Shown piece by piece: positions 6,401-56,529 of a stretch of DNA of 64,000 nucleotides. Made by a program: the position numbers and the translations under genes. The notes beneath the pieces were generated by a model. It was not told the origin of the DNA and did not search any database. It saw nothing but the letters and a program-made list of their open reading frames with translations. Each line of letters begins with the position of its first letter. Position 1 is the stretch's first letter. The DNA comes from Paramacrobiotus metropolitanus (taxonomy: Eukaryota; Tardigrada; Eutardigrada; Parachela; Macrobiotidae): assembly GCF_019649055.1 (NCBI RefSeq), contig NW_026570236.1, positions 124,001 to 188,000 on the forward strand, written 5' to 3'.

Positions 6401-9400
6401 GCTTCTTATATCACTTACGCCTCTTTTTGAAACTCCAACGATTGCACGATATCCGGCTTGCTGGATTTATAATTCCATAAATGCAGCCAACTATTGGCCG
6501 TTAAACTGACAAATGTTCCCTAAACACAATGAAATTCTCGGTATTCTGGGATCGATGCAGGAAATGATTTCAAGTTTTCCTCGTACATTGTTCGAAAGAT
6601 GCGAAAACAAACGTGCAGCTATGCATAGCCACATTCCGTGGCCTACAAATAATGTAACATTTTTATCGAAAATAATATCAAATTTTCCGTGCTAGTTTTT
6701 ACGTATCGTTAACAAGGTAAGCATTTCATATTTTTGAAAGAATTTCTTATTTCCAGTTATTTAACGCCGCGTATTCTATGGAATGTCCATTTAAAGTTAT
6801 GCAACGTACAGATGAACTCTGATAGTATTCGCACCTCATTAACAAGAAAAGCAATTTGTACAATGGCATTGGGAAAATGGGATCCGGATGCGTTGCCCAA
6901 CAGTGCATCCCGCTCGGCGCCGGCCTGCTCCGAGCCGCCGGATGGAGGTTTAAGAAGATAATCAACACCCGGCCGTCCAATTCTACACAAACAGCACATG
7001 ATGCAAGGGCTCAACCGCTGACATATCACGACTCTTCCCTCTCGGTCACTATCATAATTTTTATGAATCGTTCAAGCGTAGAGATTTAATTGACGCTCCA
7101 GGCCTATGGTGTACATGTAATTCCCGATTTTCTAGCCCTGTCTAATCAGCTGACCTCTCGCCCAGTCTACTCTGCCAGATTATCCCAACCGATAGTTCGA
7201 TTCATGCTTTTCTCATACCCGAAAAAACCAACCGTAATCGTTAGTGAAACTTTCGGGGAAAGCGCGCGCTTTTGCATAATTTATCAAGGTCCTGTGCCAA
7301 ACTGTACGGATAAAGATGTCCCGGCCTGGCTTTTGTGTGCGACCAAATTGAGGGACAATTTGATTTTTGGGCCTTGAAGTGATATCGTTCATCGATCTTC
7401 TGTGTGTGTGCGGTGGTACGTTTTTCAAATCCCGGGCATGTGGGGGATGCTCTTACACTAATAGCAGCCGCATCAGATCGAATTATGCTGCCAGGCACAC
7501 AGTCCAAATCATTCTGACAATGCAATTACGGGGAATGTTGCGCAAAAGTCTTCTCATCTCAAACATGATTGCCCCTGCAGTCCAATATTTATTTAACAAT
7601 TACAATTTAAAAGATTATTAAAGAAAATAGCCATCCAAAAATAGTCTGTGCCTTTGTAATTACGCCTCGATAAAATCCGATACGCATGAACTTCCGGTGA
7701 ATACCGGAATCATGTTTCTCTCAATGCTACTGTCATATCCATAATACACTGATGCACTTACAGAACAAACGAGTATGCAGAGCTTAAAATATTTAGAAAA
7801 CAGTACAGCAGAGTACCTAGCGTCAATTATTGATCCTTAAGTGCTGTAAATTTGCTGAGGGATAGTTTTCATGGCGATAAAATTAATAATCTGAAAAGAA
7901 AAAACAAAAGAGTGAAAAATAATTTACATCAACTTCCTAATTTTTCAAAATCCAGCAGGTTGGATAAAAGAGTGCGAGAGGATGCGAGGAAGTACGCAAC
8001 CTTAAAAACCAGCAGAAATTAACGGTATGGTTACAAGTTATAACAACCACTATTAAGGATTTTCGGCACGGCTTTCCGTGCCTGGAGGTGTCATGTCCAT
8101 TGCGCATGTTGACATGCCGCTGTGGCAACGCCGCCAAAAGGTACAATCTCCCACAACTGAGCCCTGCTTAGCCTGTCAGGAGCGATTAAAGTTTCATCTC
8201 CCCATCCGCGAACCGAATAACATGCCTGCGCTCTGCCTGTACCCCGTACCAATTGGGCTATAAATTTCCACAATATATCAGGGAACGAGATTAGTGGCCA
8301 TGAGAGAGCACTGCCACTGCCGTCCTATTGATTTTCCCATAAACTGCATGCTGTATCTGTGACTTCCTACTTCCTATGCGTCTATAGAGAGCTAATCATG
8401 CTACGCCTATGGAGCAGGGTTATGAAGAAAAAGGATACAGTCGGATGAGGCCATGCCGTGTGCCGATCGCCAGTATCCTCTGTACCGGCTCCAGTGCCAT
8501 GGTCGTCGGGTCCTGTGGGAAGCCGTGTCGGGAGACCTGAAAAACAACAACCAATACAACCGTTATGGATGTGATTTTTGCGGCAGGCCACTGAATAAAC
8601 AGTCTTGGTAGCTTGCCGTAGCAAAAATGACAATTATTTCCGGAAGCGTGACTAAGCGTAGCCGGAGCACATGGCCCGCATGGCGCTGGGCACACCTGGT
8701 CTGCCATGCACATAGCGGTTAAGTACGGTAGCAAAGGAATTTAATCAGAGCGTTTAGCAATATAAAGCGGTGGGTTTCTTCAGCAAAACAAAAAACTTCT
8801 ACTATTACGTTGGAGACGGGTGACAGTAAAAACTATTAAAATCGATAAGAAAAAACATTAGAAGCATTTGTCAGTCGTTATTTAATGTGACAGAACCGCA
8901 TTTTAAAAGCGCTTACAAAAACAACACTCTCAAGCGTCTACAAAACCCAAGCTTTAAACTTTAAAAACTACTGTAATCTTTAACGTACCTTTACAGATTA
9001 CTGAAACTTTTAACGTACCTTTACAACCTTTACAGCCGAAAAAACCTTAACATATCATGGACTAAATGTCCGGTTTCGATGTCACCCTATGGTTACTTTT
9101 GCACATACTATTACTTAAGCCAAAAAGCAAAATTTTTCCACCACTTCCAAAAACTGAATATTTAACTGATATTTTACAGGGCGTTACAAACATATTTAGT
9201 TCATCGTTGCATTAAATTTCCTTGTGTTTGAATCCAGTGCAGTTTCGGTACTGTAAACCGCAGACATTTCTGACGTCTTCGCTATCTTTACTGCCATACC
9301 AACCTCGGCAAATGCAAAATCCTGCGGGCGAACATTTTCATCTGGATCAATGTCGAATTTATTGGCACCAGTCACTGCATCAGCAACCCCAGCTACCGAC

Positions 9401-13625: not shown

Positions 13626-15996
13626 ATGGATACGGGGAAAAAAGTGGGGGATTTGTTCGGGCGACTCGGTAAGGTTCCCGGCCGCGGTGTGGGGATTGGA
13701 TTGCAGTTGTTGGTGGGAGCCGGTGGTCTGGCCTACGGAGTATCCCAGTCCATGTATACAGGTACGCCATTGCTTCATCCCTGTGCAGTTCCGTGAAGGA
13801 CACCGCGGTTTCCTTCTGCAGTTGAGGGTGGTCATCGCGCCATCATCTTCAGTCGACTGGGTGGTGTGCAGAACGAAGTGTACGCCGAAGGACTCCACTT
13901 CAGGCAAGTCAAACTCAAAAACGTGGAATCAAAATTTGAACAGGAACTGTTTGCTGTTTATGAATTTTCTGTTGACATAAAATTTGGTTAATCTACTTTT
14001 ACGATCGATACTCGAGCCGATTTCTGCGGCAGTGTTGACGAATGCCGCGAACCCTTACAAGTAGAGAAATTTTGGAAAAATTGTGTAGCCAGTCTTTAGT
14101 TGAAATTTTTGATTCCTCGTTGAGTTGGTTAAATATCCAATAATCCCCTCAAAACACCTTTGTACACGGGTATACCCTGCTGTTTGAAGTGCTGAATTGT
14201 TAGGCTTAGAACTACCAAAACATAGAACGAGCCAAGAGTCACCGTTGAGGTGTGTTTGTATCGAGATGGTGCTACTGAGTTCGGACATTAATGTTGCCTC
14301 TAGATAATGCTCTTAGCCCTTTGATTAACAACGGCTAGGACACCTTCTTTTGGTACATTTATTGGTACTGATTGTTCTAAAACTGTTAAGTATTTTATTG
14401 AGGGTTTTAAATTAGTGTACAGGTGTCGGGTACCTGACATTTTTCGTTTCCAGAATTCCTTGGTTCCATTATCCGATTATCTATGACATCCGTTCCCGAC
14501 CCCGGTCCATCTCCTCCCCAACGGGAAGCAAAGGTTAATCATTTGCTGACAGACGTCTGGGATAACTGGAATAAAACATGTTTATTTTTTGGTACAGATC
14601 TTCAGATGGTTAACATCAGTCTCCGTGTTCTCGCCCGTCCCGATGCCGTGGCGCTGCCGCGTATTTATCGCCAACTGGGCACCGATTATGATGAGCGAGT
14701 TCTGCCTTCCATCTGTAATGAGGTCCTGAAATCGGTGGTGGCCAAATTCAACGCATCCCAGCTGATCACCCAGCGTTCTCAGGTAATTTTTTGTTATTAA
14801 AATTAGTTATTCCTGTTAGTTTGCGACTGACGTACAAAGAAAGTTATAGTTATTTTGTTTTTCGAATTATGTATTCGTCTCTTGTTTCTTTGTCAAATTT
14901 TACACGGTACTTCAGGGAAGATTTTTTTTGTAGGTTTCGCTATTGGTTCGCAAGGAACTTACTGAACGAGCACGTGATTTCAACATAATCCTGGACGATG
15001 TGGCCATTACGGAGTTGAGCTTCGGCAAAGAGTACACCGCTGCCGTTGAATCTAAACAGGTACGGTTTTGCATGATTTTTCGGTATATTCGTTTTGGATA
15101 TTTAGATTGCTGTGCTTGTTGTTTTGAATCTGGAACAGTAAATTGAGGAATTTATTTTTAATTAGGTTGCTCAACAAGAGGCACAACGGGCCCAGTTTTT
15201 GGTCGAGAAAGCCAAACAGGAGCGCCAGCAGAAGATCGTCCAAGCGGAAGGAGAAGCTCAAGCAGCACTATTGATATCCTTTTTCTTCGACACCTTTATT
15301 TTATAGGGCATTATTATTGGCAATTTCCTTGGGGTTTTCTGATGATAACTCAGGGCTTATCGCTCTTCCGTAGCGGGAAGAGCTGAGCTGAGTTGCAGGG
15401 AGGCGTATGTTTTCTTGGTGAACTCCGACGTTTACGGTTATTCGTAGATATTTCTCACCGGGGTTCATCGTAATCACATACGTACAGTATCAGGGCAGTC
15501 TTTTAATACGGCAGATGAAAGTTTTTTAGCACTGACTTTCAGCTAGCGGCTGTTCGATAATTGCGGTACAGTTCTTCAACTCCTGTGTGATGTGGTCTTT
15601 GGTAATCTGATTAGTTCCCCGGGAAATTGTGGCAGATGGTGTTATTTTTGGTATTCCAAATTTATATGCGGTTTCTTTAACGGTAGCTTGTGTTTCCTTC
15701 GTGTACTTAGGAGATGCTGTGACGAAAAATCCAGGTTATTTGAAGCTGAGGAAAATCCGTGCTGCGCAAAGCATCGCGAGAACGGTAAGCAACCATTGAC
15801 GAATCTGATACATTTCGACTTATTTTGCTAATTAAAACTCTATCAGAATTGGAAAATGTCTTAACATTTTTTGTTTGTTTACTAGATCGCACAGTCTAAT
15901 AATCGTGCCTATTTGGATGCCAATACCTTGATGTTGAACCTTACTGATCTGGGTTATGATCAAGGAGCAACAAGGGCCGGGACGAGCAAGAAATAA
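13626..15996 (+). CDS. PHB2: Prohibitin-2
   Basis: Prohibitin-2 forms ring complexes with prohibitin-1 in the inner mitochondrial membrane, scaffolding and stabilising membrane proteins and supporting mitophagy. Eight exons: 13626-13761, 13822-13903, 14454-14533, 14598-14782, 14934-15059, 15166-15273, 15707-15784, 15886-15996; 906 nt, 301 residues, against 299 in human. Visible features are an N-terminal hydrophobic anchor ([17 protein letters not shown], residues ~27-43), the SPFH/PHB core ([67 protein letters not shown]), and the C-terminal coiled-coil region ([32 protein letters not shown]). Intron 2 uses a GC donor and intron 6 is AT-AC U12-type; both are required to keep the conserved frame. 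It converges with the helicase gene downstream. Confidence 0.97.
13904..14453 (+). other. GC-AG intron 2 of prohibitin-2
   Basis: The exon ends CACTTCAG and the intron begins GCAAGTC, the usual strong context for the rare GC donor. Joining to AATTCCTTGG gives HFRIPWF, the conserved prohibitin-2 sequence. No nearby GT restores the frame. Confidence 0.85.
15274..15706 (+). other. AT-AC U12-type intron 6 of prohibitin-2
   Basis: The exon ends CACTATTG and the intron begins ATATCCTTTTTC, a perfect match to the U12 AT-AC donor ATATCCTTT. It ends TTCGTGTAC before TTAGGAGATGCT. The join gives [14 protein letters not shown], equal in length to human AAKMLGEALSKNPGY. Using the nearby AG (15,709-15,710) instead breaks the frame. 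TTCTTTAAC at 15,673-15,681 resembles the U12 branch consensus TTCCTTAAC, about 26 nt from the 3' end, somewhat far for this class. Confidence 0.88.
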
Positions 15997-37551: not shown

Positions 37552-40500
37552 CTATTTGTATGTAAACTGCGCCACATCCAGTTGGCAGTATCCTTGAAAT
37601 CGCTCCAGTGTTACAGGTGCATCTGCAAAATGACAAAACGCTCACGTGTAAGTAATGATTCCAACGCCAGCTGCTTTGCTGTTTATCAAAAATAATGTTA
37701 CTTTAAGCATTTGCTTAAAACAACAGTGTGGTCACTTACTAAACTGAAACCAATCATTCCCTTTCTTTGTCTCATCCAAAGCGGCATTGCACGCGTTGCG
37801 TAATGCAAAAACAACGGCGTTTGTCATGCAGAGCGGAGGTTCGGCGACCACTGGAACATTTCATCCAGTTATAGCGATTTTTGTCATTGTTGTCAAAATA
37901 CAAGCATTCGATTTTATGTTGTCATAGCTTTACTACATACTAAATAAAAAAGCTTACATTTGCTTCGTAGAACGCCAAGTGGATTTGGAGCATTTTGGAG
38001 GATTTCTACTCGGAAATCAATGGGAATGTCTTTAGTAGACGGGGGCTTATAAGTCCAAGTACTATAGGTCACCAGTTCACCGGTTTTTGGGTCGTATTTT
38101 AGCTCCTCCGAAGTGTAATATCCCAGTCCCATAATGACCGCACCTAAATTCCGCCATGTTGTGAGGTCGTGATCGGGAATCATAGATGCAACAAATTAAC
38201 CGAAGTGCTATAAAACACCCGTACCTTCAATCTGACCCACATCTGAAAAACAGAAGAAAACGATTTAGATATCAATAATTTCCCGAATTTTTGACGCATT
38301 GGTTCTTTCGGAATACAAAGATGCAAGTACTTAGATGATACGTTAGAACACGATGGAAACTTTTCTTACCGACAAAAGGCGACATCGATTCACCGCAGTC
38401 ATACAGGACATCGTATCGGTTAATCTGATATTCGCCGGTTAGAATATCGGTTTCTACTTCGCAGCACGTCACGCCGTATGTATTATAGCAAATGGGAGCA
38501 TCCGCGGTCTGCGGTGCAGTCCTGCAAGACATTCCAAATGTACAAGAATGTTTTCTGGTGACATATCTATATATTTTCCGGTAACATATTTTTTTCGGTT
38601 TTTATTCTGGTAACGAAATTTCATATGGATTTACCAAGCGCGGGCAGAAAGATCAATCCCTTGCGAATAACACTTTTCCACCAGATCAGCCCACGGCGTG
38701 TCGGCTTTCATGGAGTCTTTTACCGGTTTCATCCGAGCAAGCAATGAAGAGCAGCAATCCAGAGCAGCCTATGTTTTATAAAAAACCATCCGATGCATAT
38801 AAATATTCTAGACCCAACCACCAATTAATCAGCTTACGTAGACTAAGGGCGATAAGCGCTACCCGGTGGGTTATGTCTGCCTCATTTAATACTATTCAAG
38901 GAAAGTGTTAAAAAATCTACGAAACATTCCATTTTTTCTCGGACAAACTTAATACTTAGTATTCGGTTTATTCTGGAAGCTACTCTAAATTCTACATAAC
39001 TGTACTCGGATACCGGAGTCAAATTAACAAGCAACTGTATGCAGATAAGTGATACAATATTTAAAGTATTTTATATTGTTTTTATGAATGGTTCATGACC
39101 AATACTTATTCAGGTACGAAATTGTGTATATTACATCGTCGGTTATGCTTACCAAACAACATAATTCACTCGTCATGCTCCCTCCGGTGCTGGTGGCATT
39201 GGCGCTTGTGAAGGACATATTGGCTTTAATCGAAACCTGATCCAAGGGAATATTGAGTTCATGCGCCACCACCTGAGCCACTTTGGTGTTCAGTCCCTGC
39301 CCGATTTCTACACCGCCATGCGACACCGCGACAGCACCGCCGTTGTGGAAAATCGCCACGTGACAGCTGTACTGGTTCCCGTTCCACACGGTGCCGTACT
39401 TCATAGGGGTCACCGATATACCGCGCTTCCGCCAACGGTTGTTCTTGTTAAAGTCGTTAACGACTTGCAGCCGGTTCTGGTAATCGGCGGACTTAAGAAG
39501 CTGGGTGGTCACGTCGGCAATGCTGCAGTATGATATACTCTGACCGGTGATTTGTTTGTCACCGTTTTTATAAAAGTTGGCTTGTTTAATGATAATGGAG
39601 GGTTTTTTTAGGAATTTGGCAATGTGTTCCATAACATATTCGATAAAATAAATCGCCTCCGTTGATCCTGGAAATACAGTTTACACGGTAACGATAATAA
39701 AGATAGAAGGTTTTCGAAATTTTAGCAGAGTATTAAGCATTATATTTACAGTATCAGCATATTACACACAATCTGGGACTCACGATTATTTTCTATATTC
39801 CGAAACCAGTTTTCAGAAGATTAACAGAAAAGAGCGCAAAGTTTTCATTATATGCAGTAAATTACATAATTTGTACTTAAAGTTAAATATGTTTGGATCG
39901 CTTTGCTAACAACCAGTTTTTGGCATATTCCATCTGCAAATGCCGTCGTAATACGCAGTATTGTAGTGCAGCGCTTGCGGCGTCGAAAATGCGCATCGAT
40001 GCGCATTAGAAAACTTGCATACGTAGTGACTGAAACGCACTTCTCAACAATCTTAATGGGACAGGATGTAAATTTTCATTATAAAAAAATTGTCTGGCAG
40101 TATTGCTTCATCTATAAAGGTTTGCTATAATCTGCAAACAATTCTTACCGGGAGCACGACACCACGTGTTGGGAGGTAAATTTGTCTTGCAGTTTTGCAT
40201 GGAAATTTTCCAATTTGCGCACTTATAAGCTGAAATAAACAATACAAATACAGTAAAATACCCATACTGTAGATGTCAAAAGAAAAACATCTTACTATTG
40301 TCTCCCCAGGTTAATTCGCCATTGACGGCCGAGTCGTTGGCTTGTGCTCCGATATTCCCGTACACATCCAGAATTACCCCCATCAGTTTACCGTTGTTGT
40401 CGAAACCAGCTTGATATTTTGTCAAGTACGGAAATCGCTTTCCAATGGCGCGATTATTGTCCCACAGATTCATATGGAATTTAACTGGTCTATACCAACG

Positions 40501-48119: not shown

Positions 48120-51100
48120 ATGGGATTATTATGCGGTGTTTTTATAGCAACTGTAATTGTAATTTTTTCGGTTATGGCAACAGATCTTGCGGATTTTGGC
48201 AACACTAAAGATTCTGCTGAACCTGATTTGGAGGAATCGCTATTTGAACCCAGAGCAGACGTGTACAATGCCACCATAACCGGCGCGTCAAAGCCAAACA
48301 TTCTTGTTTTCATCGCGGATGATTTGGTATGGACTTCCGTGGACTTCCGTATTTCAGCTTAATGATTGTAATATCTGCATTTTGTTTCAAACATTACCAT
48401 ACATATAAGCACTTTAAAATAATATCGCTGTCATATCAGAAATGCGAACAACACCATGGCAGCTCATGGCAAGTCAGTGTTGACCTTTACCAACAATGAG
48501 CAATCTAGAGCAAACAAAATCAAGCTTTCGCTCCATTGTTTCAAGGGCCATGCCGATTTAAGTTATTCCGAAGGCAATCTGCAAACCCCAACACCAAATA
48601 TCGACAAATTAGCCTGGGATGGAATAATACTGAATCGACACTATGTCAATCCCATATGCACGCCAACCCGCGGAGCGTTCATGACAGGAAGAGACGCGTT
48701 CCGTGTTGGTAAGCTTATATAGGTGCAATCATGTAATTATATCGGCGCCCCCGACCATCACAGACGTAAATTTCCCTTAGGCTTACAAACAGCAGCCATT
48801 AGCGAAGGCGAACCATGGGGGTTACCTTTACAGTTTAAAATACAACCTCAGTATTTCAAGGATCTTGGATACACAACAGCAGCCGTTGGCAAAGTAAGTT
48901 CGTATTCTCTACGCACAATATGTAATTTCTAAAACTTTTGGACTATGGGTTCTAGAACCCATATTCCTGACTTACCAGCTAGCTATCGTGCCTAACTAGT
49001 TGTGACCTTTTGTAGTGGCATCTTGGAATGTACACGCGACAGCATTTCCCCAGTAAGAATAAAATTTTTAATATGATTTTTGTTACACATGGATCATACA
49101 GTTATTTTTTTTGACGAAAACCTTTTTAACACACCAGAATTACAATTTGTTTCTAAAAAAAATTCATTCAGCCTTGCAGAAAAGTTCACATAATGTTTAA
49201 AAGAAGTTACACAAGGTACACAGAAATATCAAACTTACCAGGGCAGTATTTCCGCCTCCAAATTCAAAAAAACATCGTTTTTTGTACAAAGGTAGTAGAC
49301 TACCGTGGTATGCTTAAAAAAATAAATTTAGCTGCAAAGGTCAGTTGTGCGTGGTCTGATATAAATTGTATGAGTACATAGTATTGCATACTGTTATTAT
49401 GCAGTACTTCGTACTGGCATTTACCATAATATTATATTAATTTTGTGGCCACTGGACCAGTTGTGGACCCTTCCAGGTGTCAAGTACCGACATAACTCCA
49501 AAAACGCTTCCGGTAGTCCCATCTTGCCTGGCAAGTGCTACATCATATGCATTTTTTAAAATGTTTTACCTAAATGCTTCCTAATAGTTCCTGAGCATAT
49601 GGACATACAACCAGCTTAAAAATTAGCGAAGTTATTGAATTTCTCAAATTTCATAATTTTGTTGCGATGGTCAGTGATCACCGCACGCGCACGTACGATC
49701 GGCATTTCGAAAGATCCACGGGACGTCCAGTGCCCGCAAAAACGATATTGCGACATAAAATGCAATTAATATTACGTTCTGATAGTATGCGCACTCTGTA
49801 CTCATTAAATTTATATTAGACCACGCCCAACTGACCTTTGCAGCTTAAATTATTTTTTTAAGCAAACCACGGTAGTCTACTACCTTTGTACAAAAAACGA
49901 TATTTGTTTGAATTTGGAGGCGGAAATACTGCCCTGGTTAGTTAGTTCACTACGAGTAGTGAGTCGTATTACAGAAGATTGTCATAGAAGATAAGTATAA
50001 ATCTCTCATAACAGATGCAAGAGGCTTCGATTATTCGTACTGGTTCCACGGCGGCGATGCGAACTGGTTCAACGTTAGTACCGGATGGGTATGTACTTTG
50101 GCATTAATTTAAGAAATCATTTCAACTAAATGTTTTGTTAGAATTTAATTTGTTAATACAGCTCACACCCGTTCTCAATCACGGGAAAGCCTTTCGCGAA
50201 AACGGAAAGATAATCTTTTCCAATATAACCAACAATTATTATTTTCCTGAACAAATGACAGCAAAAGCCGAACAAATAATCCACGACTTTGAACCAAATA
50301 AGCCCTGGTATCTATATTTCGCCACACCGGTCACGCACACCGCCATTGCAGCCTACGGACCAGAACAGCACGTCATGGCCAGCTATCAGCTTCGCCCGCC
50401 TGTCCGCTCATTTTCAAATCAGTTTCCCGAAAGGAAGAAACAACTGGGTATGCGTTGTGTTAACAGTAGTTGTAGAGCAGTTGCTGGAGATGTGATGACC
50501 TTTGAAGTATATATGAAGTAAATAATTCACCATCTTTCTGTAGAGCGGGTGACCTTTGGTTAATTACACTTCTCAAATATTCTTTTCCTATATTCTCAAA
50601 TATTTTCTTTCAGGTATAATTCAAGTCCTAGATGAGCAGTTTCGCCGATTAACTAACGCACTGACGTACACCGGAGCCATTAATAACACGATAATTGTGT
50701 TTATGGCGGATAACGGCGGACCTCTGCCGGAAGTTGCCGGTTTTATTCATGGCAGTAACCACGCTAGCAATTGGCCGCTTCGCTTGGGTAAAGGTTCGCT
50801 GTTCGAAGGTGGAGTGCGCGGTTTATCGTTTATCTGGTCACCCTTGCTAAAACGCCGCGGCCGAGTGACCAACCAGCTGTTCCATGTCTCTGACTGGTTG
50901 CCGACACTGTATGAAGCTGCTGGCGGGAATGTAAGGGATTTGGTTAACGTCACCGGAGTGAGTCAGTGGAAATCTTTGTTCCACGGAAATAATTATGGCC
51001 CGCGAACTGAACTCGTGAACAACATTGATTCCATCTTGAACCAGTATGCTATGGTGTATCAAGATCAGTACGGTGGAATGTACAAACTTATTGGTAAGAA

Positions 51101-51855
51101 ATCCCAGTCTATTAAGACGCAACAATTTCTCCATCAAGCAATCAGTAAAACTGCATTTTCTAAAGGCTTTCGCCTTTGCATGTCGAAATATGTACATGTG
51201 TACCTGCATGTACTGTAAGCATGATCTAAGACCGGTAAAAAAATTTGAGGGTGCGTAAAGGTCGCAATTAACACTAACCCTATCTATGTTTTCATTTCAA
51301 AGGCCCAAGCAAGTGTTTCGTCTATGTGGCTTTTATTTGACTAGCACACTGTGTTTTAGGTGGAAACGTCTTTAACAACCAGTTTTTTGGATGGTAAGCA
51401 CAAACAAACTGGATAAATTACCGTAGTGCCAGAAATCTGACACTGAAGCGGTACAGATTATGAAGAGCTAATTGTTAACTAGGGACCGCACAGAAGGCAC
51501 AAGTCCTGGCAATGAGATGAAGAGCTGGAGCCCGGTATCTGTGGAATGTAATTTTCCCGATGGTATGGAAGTCAGCACATGCCGGCCGTATCAGAGTGAC
51601 TGTCTGTTCGACCTCATCAACGATCCCTGTGAGACGAACAATATCGCCGCATCATTTCCGAGTATGACGCAGCTTCTCCAACAGAAAATCAAAAATTACA
51701 ATGGCTCATCGTTTCCCGCACAAGTGCGACCTTTTGACCCCGCCTCCAATCCCGATCTTCATCAGGGTTTGTGGACACCGTGGCTAGATCCTGTGGAAGT
51801 TTTGGATACAGTGCCACTGACCTTTCAAACATTTACTCCAACCAATACGTTATAA
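48120..51855 (+). CDS. Arylsulfatase B/I/J-type sulfatase, copy 1
   Basis: Lysosomal or secreted sulfate-ester hydrolase, probably on glycosaminoglycan or other sulfated carbohydrate. Nine exons: 48120-48326, 48546-48708, 48781-48893, 49016-49052, 50015-50088, 50162-50447, 50614-51093, 51360-51393, 51483-51855; 1,767 nt, 588 residues. N-terminal signal peptide (GLLCGVFIATVIVIFSVMA); metal-binding NILVFIADDL; sulfatase signature CTPTR with the cysteine (residue ~107) to be converted to formylglycine; VGKWHLG; VTHT; FMADNGG; NWPLRLGKGSLFEGGVRG; VSDWLPTLYEAAG; C-terminal DCLFDLINDPCETNNIA. All active-site motifs of the family seem present, so it is likely active. It stands head to tail with copy 2, with which it shares exon boundaries except one. 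Intron 4 carries a MITE. Confidence 0.95.
49235..49940. mobile_element. Harbinger-like MITE with long inverted ends, in sulfatase intron 4
   Basis: A 700-bp unit (49,238-49,937) begins CCAGGGCAGTATTTCCGCCT and ends with the reverse complement. Flanking TTA on both sides (49,235-49,237; 49,938-49,940) fits the 3-bp TWA target duplication of PIF/Harbinger elements. The inverted ends are long, roughly 150 bp or more, with scattered mismatches and small gaps, around a central part of about 400 bp with no transposase frame. The RNA could fold into a long hairpin inside the intron. Ends that have drifted suggest moderate age. Confidence 0.78.
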
Positions 51856-52876: not shown

Positions 52877-55800
52877 ATGGAGGGTTATCGCTTCCTGTAC
52901 AATTTGCGCATTTGCTGCGCTATAGTAGAAATTATTGCGGCTAATAGCAATGCGATGGATATTTCAAGTTTGTTAACGGATCGGCGTTTGGATAACAATT
53001 TCCTTCGGCAACTCGGATCGACTCCTATCAATCAGTGCGCATCACTTCCACCAGGAAAGCTGTCAAATTACGCTAACAGACCCAACATACTCATTTTCAT
53101 GGCTGATGACTTGGTAAAGGACTTCAGTGCTTTTAAAACGATTTGGCGGAATATGTATATTTACGCAGTCTGGATAGAATTCATTTGATTTGTACTGTCC
53201 ACGAATTAGGGCCATGCCGATATTGGCTACTCCGAGGGCAGCCACCAGACGCCGACTCCTAACATTGATAAATTTGCGTATGATGGGATCATATTGAATC
53301 GACATTATTCACATCCATTGTGTACGCCAACACGTTCGGCATTCATGACCGGAAAATATGCCTTCCAAGTTGGTAGGCTACGCGATACAACCAGTAACAT
53401 ATCTGACCCTTCTATTGTTAATTATAATATTTGCGCATGTGGTCTTTTTTTGGATTCACAATGCGTTAATCTAACAATGTAAACGACTCAACAAATATCC
53501 CTACGTTTATGCAAAGTAGCTCTCGCAAATATAAAGTGAACAAACGTTGCAAGTTAACAGGGAGACATCTGCAAAACCTGCTTCGGCAGTGCAACAAATA
53601 AAATCCTGTAAATAAAAATTTGTTTTTTTGTTCCTAGTCCAGCACAACAGCATTAGAAGTATATCACTTTTTCCAAAATTACAGAAAACTGAGAAAAGCT
53701 ATGTACAAAATCATATGAAGTTTTGTAAGCGCTAAAATTGTTTAAATTTTAGGCATGCAGACAGGGGCAATTAGCGAAGGCGAACCGTGGGGGTTGCCCG
53801 TGGCGTTTAAAATCCAACCACAGTATTTTAAGGATTTAGGATACTCGACGTATACTGTGGGAAAAGTAAGCGCAGACCTCCAACGTGCTGACAATTAAGC
53901 AAATTATATGTATTACGCAGAAACAAGCAGCCGAGTACTGTAAGCATATATTTGCTCCTTTGTACAGCATATAGTCTCAAAGGTCACCGCTTTAAGTAAA
54001 TCAGTGTCAGTGATTCTTGTGTTGTTTTCAGTGGCATCTGGGATCGCACACTAGGAACCATTATCCCAGTACGTTATTAACAATTTGTTAAAAACAAACC
54101 TTAACAAAAACTTTATTGAACATTTACAACAAGAAGAAATAGCTAACTAGTTTTCGAAGTACGTGTGATGATTATCTTTGCAGGCTCCAGAGGATTTGAT
54201 TACTCTTTCGGTATTACCAGCGGCGACTGCAACTGGTATGACTTCACGGCAGGATGGGTAATTAACTTATCAGCGTAGCCTAAACAAATTTTTGGGTTGA
54301 GTAATTTTTAACAGAGGGCTGCATTTATTTCAGATGGAAATTCCATTAAATAACTTTTACTGTGATGTACTACTTTAAAAGTTGCCATGTGGTCCATATG
54401 GGTCAACATCATATTTTAGCATCACAGAACAAAATTGTGGCGGTACTCTACTATAAGAGTACCGCTTTTACGTAAAAGCTACTCGTACTAATCTGATATA
54501 TATAATTAATTCTGCAGTTAATTCAATCTGAAGATTAATTCCATCTGATTCCAGTGCATTTAAATGAGTAATATATCAATCTAACTAAAGTATCTACTAA
54601 TATTGCGACATAGCAAATCTGCACTATGGACGTTTTAAGTATTGTTCTGGCGTATATTGTATTTGTACCATACATTGATTCAGATGAAGCCGGTTCCAGT
54701 CAGCGGACGAGCCCTGCGTGAGAATGGAAAGATCTTCCCGCTGAATCAAAGCACTACCCCGTTTCCTGAGCTCATAGCATCCCGGGCCGAAAATCTTATT
54801 GCCGCGTCGCCTCCAAACAAACCATGGTATATGTTTTTCGCCACGCCCCTTACACATACAGGGTTTGACAATTTTGATGCCGTCCAACATCCCGTAAAAG
54901 AATACCATCTGCACATAAACGAATCCGCCATTCTGAAATTCGAAGAACGTGTTAAACAACTCGGTAGGTATCGGGCAAAAGAATGACCTTTCAAAAAAGT
55001 TATTGCCGTATTGCAGTCCTTAAGTGAAGTCACAGATGAATGTATAGTTAATGTTCAGGTTCGATCCACGCTCTGGATCGAACGTTCGCCAGACTAGTCA
55101 AAGCGTTAAAACGAAAGGGAGTACTGAACAACACCATCATCATCTTCGTTGCCGACAACGGCGCACCCTTACCGGAATCCGCTGATTTCATCCACGGGAC
55201 CAATCACGGAAGTAACTGGCCACTGCGGCAGGGAAAGGGGACGTTGTTCGAAGGCGGGATTCGAACGCTGTCGTTCATCTGGGCACCCATGTTGCAGCGG
55301 CGGGGTTTCGTATACGATGACCTTTTCCATATATCCGATTGGCTGCCTACACTGTACGAAGGCGCTGGTGGAAACACAGCTGATCTGACTGGAATTTCTG
55401 CAGTCAGTCACTGGAAAAGGTTTCACGACTATTATGCCATAGGTCCGGTCAGAGACGAGGTCGTGAATAATATCGATGGTGTTACGAATCAGTATTCCAT
55501 CACCATTATGGAGGACAACGGAAAACTGTATAAATTGCTGGGTGGAAATGTCTTCAACAACAGCTATCTAGGATGGTAAGGGTCTCATAAAGTCGGAATG
55601 TTTCACAGTAGTTATCGACATCTAACCTGGGGATGAATACCAGTATAAAGCGGCAAAGGATTCGAAGAAAAATATTGTTATAAATACTTCTGATTGTAAG
55701 TTTCAAACTTTCAATGAACGTAATATATTAGCAACTTAAAAGTGTTTTTGTTTATTCTGAAATTCCACTGGGCTATTTTGTTTTGATAAGAAACAGCTCT

Positions 55801-56529
55801 ATCCGTACAACGTGTACGTGCATGACAAATTTCCGGCTTGTAGCAGTGTCTCTTGATCATGGATTCAGTTCACGATCACGATTTATGCTGCTCATACGGT
55901 GGATTTATATATATAAGCGGTGCAACAAGCATCTTTTTGTTATTCATTATCAGTAAATCATAATTGTTGTACTTTACAAAACTGTATGTATTATGCAGTT
56001 TTGATTAAATAATATTTATCTTCAGCAAAGAATTAATTACATACATTACGTACTTACAAGGCAGACTACTGGTACGTAGGTACCACATACAGTACCGCAA
56101 TTTTATTATGGAAATCGGTCGCGCGGCAGGTGGAATATAGGTTACTTCGCTGCTCTGAATTATGTCGAAACTTACAGTTTGTTGTTTTTTAGGCGACGAA
56201 CAGAAGGTACATCCACTTCAGATGAGATGAAGTCTTGGACGCCGCTGTCGGTCAACTGCAACGCACCGGAAGGCGTTGAGCGTGCGCCATGCCAGCCGTG
56301 GCTTACGGATTGTTTATTTGACATTACGAGTGAACCTTGTGAAACTAACAACATTGCCAGCGTTTATCCATCCACTCTGCGAAAACTACAGCTGCGCTTA
56401 AGGGCGCTTAACGACACGGCCTATCCGCCGCAAATCCTGCCCTACGACCCGGCCTCTAATCCCGATTTGTATGACGGATTCTGGGTGCCCTGGAAAGACA
56501 TCCATCACGTGCTCGATCCTACAATATAA
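52877..56529 (+). CDS. Arylsulfatase B/I/J-type sulfatase, copy 2
   Basis: Tandem paralogue of copy 1, same likely activity. Eight exons: 52877-53113, 53210-53372, 53753-53865, 54032-54068, 54184-54257, 54684-54963, 55059-55575, 56193-56529; 1,758 nt, 585 residues. Shared motifs: NILIFMADDL, CTPTRSA with the formylglycine cysteine (~117), VGKWHLG, TPLTHT, FVADNGA, NWPLRQGKGTLFEGGIR, HISDWLPTLYEGAG, DCLFDITSEPCETNNIA. The exon pattern equals that of copy 1 except that exon 7 here is one piece where copy 1 has an intron after YKLIG. An in-frame ATG at 52,847 could be an alternative start. The N-terminus is only weakly hydrophobic (ICCAIVEIIAANS), so the signal peptide is less clear than in copy 1. 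Confidence 0.94.
54440..54479. repeat. Two adjoining inverted repeats in sulfatase 2 intron 5
   Basis: A 10-bp stem GCGGTACTCT/AGAGTACCGC with a 6-nt loop (54,440-54,465) runs directly into a perfect 16-bp palindrome GCTTTTACGTAAAAGC (54,464-54,479). Confidence 0.9.
55058..55083. repeat. 10-bp hairpin across the acceptor of sulfatase 2 exon 7
   Basis: GTTCGATCCA and TGGATCGAAC pair perfectly around a CGCTC loop immediately after the acceptor AG. The sequence is coding (SIHALDRTF) and corresponds to IIQVLDEQF in copy 1. Confidence 0.85.

Follow-up and report, generated by a model that had tools for sequence, protein, structure and literature searches.

Here, we show that the prohibitin-2 gene (PHB2) of a tardigrade is interrupted by an AT-AC intron which, judged by its sequence, is of the U12 type, and that the genome of the same animal holds one match each to the four small nuclear RNAs (snRNAs) U11, U12, U4atac and U6atac. 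We estimate the probability that this intron is genuine and is removed by a retained minor spliceosome at roughly nine in ten. The novelty lies in the tardigrade host, a U12-type intron in PHB2 being already known. A tardigrade with a retained minor spliceosome would bear on the question of why some animals dispense with this machinery, and would revise a phylum-level loss reported in the literature.

Structure of PHB2 and the signals of its sixth intron

The PHB2 gene lies at positions 13626-15996 (+) of the window, that is, the whole stretch of 64,000 nucleotides that was analysed. It comprises eight exons with a reading frame of 906 nt, coding for 301 amino acids and a stop, and the closest solved relative of the joined protein is human PHB2 (E = 1.1e-136). 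The features of the gene are as follows.

13626..13761 (+): PHB2 exon 1; the joined protein matches human PHB2
13822..13903 (+): PHB2 exon 2, then a GC-AG intron (GCAAGT); exon-joining script
14454..14533 (+): PHB2 exon 3; exon-joining script
14598..14782 (+): PHB2 exon 4; exon-joining script
14934..15059 (+): PHB2 exon 5; exon-joining script
15166..15273 (+): PHB2 exon 6, ending ...EGEAQAALL
15274..15706 (+): PHB2 intron 6, U12-type AT-AC by sequence; 433 nt, phase 0
15274..15282 (+): U12-type 5' splice site ATATCCTTT, complementary to the host's U11 and U6atac
15673..15681 (+): branch-like site TTCTTTAAC (8/9); A at 26 nt from the 3' splice site
15707..15784 (+): PHB2 exon 7; exon-joining script
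15886..15996 (+): PHB2 exon 8 including the stop; exon-joining script

Apart from intron 6, the introns of PHB2 are GT-AG in five of six cases and GC-AG in the remaining one, intron 2 (13904-14453, +; donor GCAAGT), so that GT-AG, GC-AG and AT-AC introns all occur in this gene.

The donor of intron 6, ATATCCTTT, agrees with the U12 consensus RTATCCTTT at all nine positions, and the intron interrupts the frame after codon 239 and ends in GTGTAC. An earlier note on this DNA, made from the letters, had described a perfect donor and a TAC terminus here, and its limits of 15274-15706 proved exact. The note had also placed the nearest branch-like site 26 nt from the 3' end; we recovered the same site, TTCTTTAAC at 15673-15681, as the best in the intron (8/9 against TTCCTTRAY, with its A 26 nt before the 3' splice site). 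This branch site is both imperfect and unusually distant from the 3' end. The donor 8-mer ATATCCTT is present in one copy in the window versus 2.34 expected from shuffles; by itself it is not rare, and the weight rests on the position of that single copy, which coincides exactly with an exon boundary set by homology. Further donor-like strings, e.g., at 37588 (+) and 57920 (-) of the window, were set aside, as by the list of open reading frames they did not resemble exon ends.

We then considered which joins around intron 6 would leave a readable gene. Joins with GT-AG, GC-AG, AT-AC and AT-AG ends were generated by a script that placed the first base of the intron at 15221-15320 and the first base of the next exon at 15561-15760. 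Within these ranges, 28 joins gave an open frame free of stops, but the conserved PHB2 stretch was whole in only one of them, 15273/15707, as judged from the printed translations. The statement in the note that only this join preserves the conserved reading is thus accurate as far as restoring conserved PHB2 is concerned, although other joins are also frame-open. The protein of the 15273/15707 join, the sole join aligned, shows no gap against human PHB2 at the junction. By sequence, then, PHB2 intron 6 is a U12-type AT-AC intron, with the imperfect branch site as its one weak feature.

An intron of this kind is not peculiar to the present gene. The parts of Lin et al. 2010 that deal with PHB2 (PMC2831892) describe intron 3 of 5 in the Drosophila gene (CG15081) as an AT-AC U12-type intron and report an orthologous U12-type intron in human PHB2, of the same AT-AC subtype as in the fly; among such intron pairs in mammals, they give one case only of changed termini, a GC-AG intron. 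The tardigrade gene shares with fly and human PHB2 an AT-AC U12-type intron in the same gene, and since both of them have one, its occurrence in tardigrade PHB2 is ordinary as such. The tardigrade intron is 6 of 7 and the fly one 3 of 5, the comparison being made by gene and subtype. A search for PHB2 gene structures in the viral and genome contig collections found no eukaryotic one: the viral contigs gave no relative, and the one record from the genome contigs, a bacterial one (L047, 23% identity), was discarded.

In the passages of Pessa et al. 2010 on the fly U6atac mutant (PMC2952598), PHB2 is the most strongly reduced U12-intron gene, and about 20 U12-type introns are given for Drosophila. 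Like Drosophila, the tardigrade has U11, U12, U4atac and U6atac (one match each here) together with some AT-AC introns. The earlier note had suggested that slow U12 splicing may regulate the output of PHB2; the support for this hypothesis comes from the fly.

Minor-spliceosome snRNAs and further candidate introns

Rfam models were searched against the host's own genome (169,799,020 bases, 533 contigs), with a cmscan repeat on the fetched loci. Each of the four snRNAs was found at one place: U11 at 87.7 bits (Rfam cut-off 39), U4atac at 90.2 bits (cut-off 53), U6atac at 69.2 bits (cut-off 33), and U12 at 58.0 bits versus a cut-off of 53, hence only 5 bits over. The four models had no match in 14 control genomes, which is a weak control, the named ones being prokaryotes. 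The earlier note had proposed a genome search for these four snRNAs as a check on its statement that the species keeps a working minor spliceosome; with all four above their Rfam cut-offs, the U12-type signals and the snRNA genes support that statement in part, and the word "working" is our inference as much as that of the note.

The sequences AAAAAGGG at the 5' start of U11, AAAGGAGAG in U6atac and GAGTAAGGAAA in U12 are all present, and we take them to be the parts of these snRNAs that act on introns, here intact. Duplex calculation predicts seven base pairs between the donor of PHB2 intron 6 and the 5' end of U11, seven between the same donor and U6atac, and eight between the branch site and U12; the predicted U4atac-U6atac duplex has an energy of -32.5 kcal/mol. 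In the mechanism that we propose, the donor ATATCCTTT would pair with U11 and subsequently with U6atac, the branch site TTCTTTAAC would pair with U12, and U6atac would be chaperoned by U4atac. These snRNAs are presumably expressed and would splice PHB2 intron 6.

The U12 match (L001 1501-1643, -; G000:C42:855119-855261) lies between same-strand HMG-CoA reductase reading frames and therefore appears to be nested in an intron of the HMG-CoA reductase gene. The U11 match (L002 1501-1666, +; G000:C40:256400-256565) is apparently inside an intron of a same-strand WD40 gene, which we take to resemble CIAO1. U12 and U11, half of this set of four, may thus be nested in introns.

Beyond PHB2, three more U12-type introns are likely from their sequences, one of them in the window and two elsewhere in the genome.

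8439..8536 (-): L(2)gl/tomosyn-family exon, ending ...LAIGTRHGLIRL; far edge read by eye
6983..8438 (-): probable U12-type intron, GTATCCTTT...TAG; 1456 nt, donor 9/9, best branch 6/9
6835..6982 (-): next L(2)gl/tomosyn-family exon, starting IGRPGVDYLL; far edge read by eye
Contig C18 (L050): AT-AC intron of 70 nt in a TPR gene
Contig C81 (L052): AT-AC intron of 68 nt in an ANF-receptor-type gene

The GT-AG intron at 6983-8438 (-) is probably of the U12 type in view of its 9/9 donor GTATCCTTT, and is graded only probable because its best branch site reaches 6/9. Support for the join 8439/6982 comes from a PDB match of the joined protein to LLGL1 (E = 1.2e-10), with no gap at the junction; against Pfam, the joined protein had no match. 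We refer to this minus-strand gene as a member of the L(2)gl/tomosyn family.

The two AT-AC introns were found with a genome-wide pattern, TATCCTTT followed by TTCCTTRAC within 26-86 nt. As this pattern is limited to short introns with perfect motifs, it gives no genome total of U12 introns. It occurred at five places versus five in the reversed-pattern control; without any excess over the control, the case for the two extra introns comes entirely from their coding context, which was convincing in 2/5 places (L050 and L052). In both, the donor is perfect and the branch site TTCCTTAAC matches at 9/9; it lies 11 nt before the 3' end in L050 and 14 nt before it in L052. The joined protein of L050 has a TPR match across the join (E = 3.8e-5) and that of L052 an ANF-receptor match across the join (E = 1.4e-4); both fall below the Pfam curated cut-offs and are real but weak. 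Matches in the PDB also span the two joins, that of L052 having a gap of two residues a short way upstream. Two of the other places, L048 (C10:1355425) and L051 (C28:491279), have a U12-like donor and TTCCTTRAC and were rejected for want of recognisable coding flanks, which suggests chance occurrences or noncoding transcripts. L049 was likewise rejected, being without convincing coding context and having, in addition, a donor that starts with C.

Probable retention and reported loss among tardigrades

Larue and Roy 2023 (PMC10639083) covered 3107 species and searched genomes with the same four Rfam models. In its parts concerning tardigrades, that survey reports no evidence of minor introns, naming Hypsibius exemplaris, and lists tardigrades among the lineages that lost the minor system; its main text mentions neither Paramacrobiotus nor Ramazzottius. 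In contrast, we found the four snRNAs in the same phylum with the same models. The remark of the earlier note that some small-genome lineages have lost the minor spliceosome is important here because tardigrades are on the published list of such lineages. We found no report of a tardigrade minor spliceosome among the matches listed for the open-licence PMC literature.

In our judgement, loss of the minor spliceosome probably did not extend to the whole phylum: a macrobiotid would keep the snRNA set and some U12 introns, including that of PHB2, whereas Hypsibius apparently does not. The system would then not have been lost at the base of Tardigrada, and, should its reported absence from Hypsibius prove correct, the loss took place inside the eutardigrades. 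Retention in this tardigrade would offer a comparison of retained and lost systems within one class with small sequenced genomes, and, if the reading is true, related lineages could be compared for what genes like PHB2 need before the machinery can go. PHB2 is a good test gene for this purpose, since no other U12-intron gene of the fly is reduced as strongly when U6atac fails.

Identity of the host and alternative explanations

The host is marked as a tardigrade by its CAHS genes, which are, to our knowledge, specific to tardigrades; published abstracts agree with this. A CAHS D query gave 20 matches (best E = 3.0e-69, identity up to 71%), some of which are fragments of a single gene. The genome also contains 92 homeodomain matches, and among the 30 of these 92 that were examined there is one each of what we take to be labial-, Hox3- and AbdB-like homeoboxes of ecdysozoan appearance. 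A COX1 search of the genome gave no match. The arthropod cuticle domain PF00379 and nematode TTR-52 (PF01060) had no match in any genome searched, which we do not count as absence.

Could intron 6 be removed without a minor spliceosome? The major spliceosome might treat it as a U2-type AT-AC intron or use a nearby GT-AG pair, and U2-type AT-AC introns do exist in sodium channel genes (PMC2831892). However, the same source has such introns carrying G at +5, whereas intron 6 of PHB2 has C at that position within a donor that fits U12 at 9/9, and the sole GT-AG join among the 28 would remove 25 residues of the conserved PHB2 stretch; this is the least likely of the alternatives that we weighed. 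A decaying relic, in which the snRNA genes persist while a few leftover U12 introns are poorly spliced, would be in keeping with the few perfect short-intron matches genome-wide (5 vs 5 in the control), with the imperfect and distant branch site of PHB2 and with the 6/9 branch of the L(2)gl/tomosyn-type intron. Yet the pairing sequences are kept in the snRNA genes. Moreover, given the conservation of PHB2 and its presumably essential role, intron 6 should have to be removed; we hold decay to be very unlikely.

More improbable still, in our view, is that the contigs carrying PHB2 and the snRNAs belong to another animal, e.g., the food rotifer Lecane inermis, and that the tardigrade itself is without the system. 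According to PMC8277472, the published Paramacrobiotus culture did receive a rotifer and an alga as food. In terms of composition, the U12 locus (L001) had a correlation of 0.54, outside the range of 0.63-0.85 for 60 single-locus draws, and the sample from contig C5 had a correlation of 0.73 on 11 kb, under the 0.80-0.91 of the 9 kb homeodomain samples, which come from mixed contigs. Shared repeats tying C16, C40, C42 or C5 to the CAHS contigs were looked for and none were found. Against these points, the composition correlation with CAHS loci was 0.85 for the C42 sample (25 kb) and 0.86 for the C40 sample, and the AT-AC intron of L050 is on contig C18 together with two CAHS matches (67-68% identity). 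The labial-, Hox3- and AbdB-like homeoboxes are, moreover, each single among the 30 of 92 matches examined. The description of the published assembly gives 1.05 (BUSCO) and 1.24 (CEGMA) orthologues per gene (PMC8277472); if that assembly is the one searched here, such low redundancy leaves no room for a second animal genome in bulk.

Two apparent gene duplications were also observed. The homeobox loci L025 and L029 (contigs C3 and C17) share 97% identity across 726 bases, which points to a divergent homeobox gene that was duplicated recently. In the window, 50108-51852 and 54639-56526 (+) hold adjacent sulfatase genes, identified by Pfam on one frame each, which likely represent a tandem duplication.
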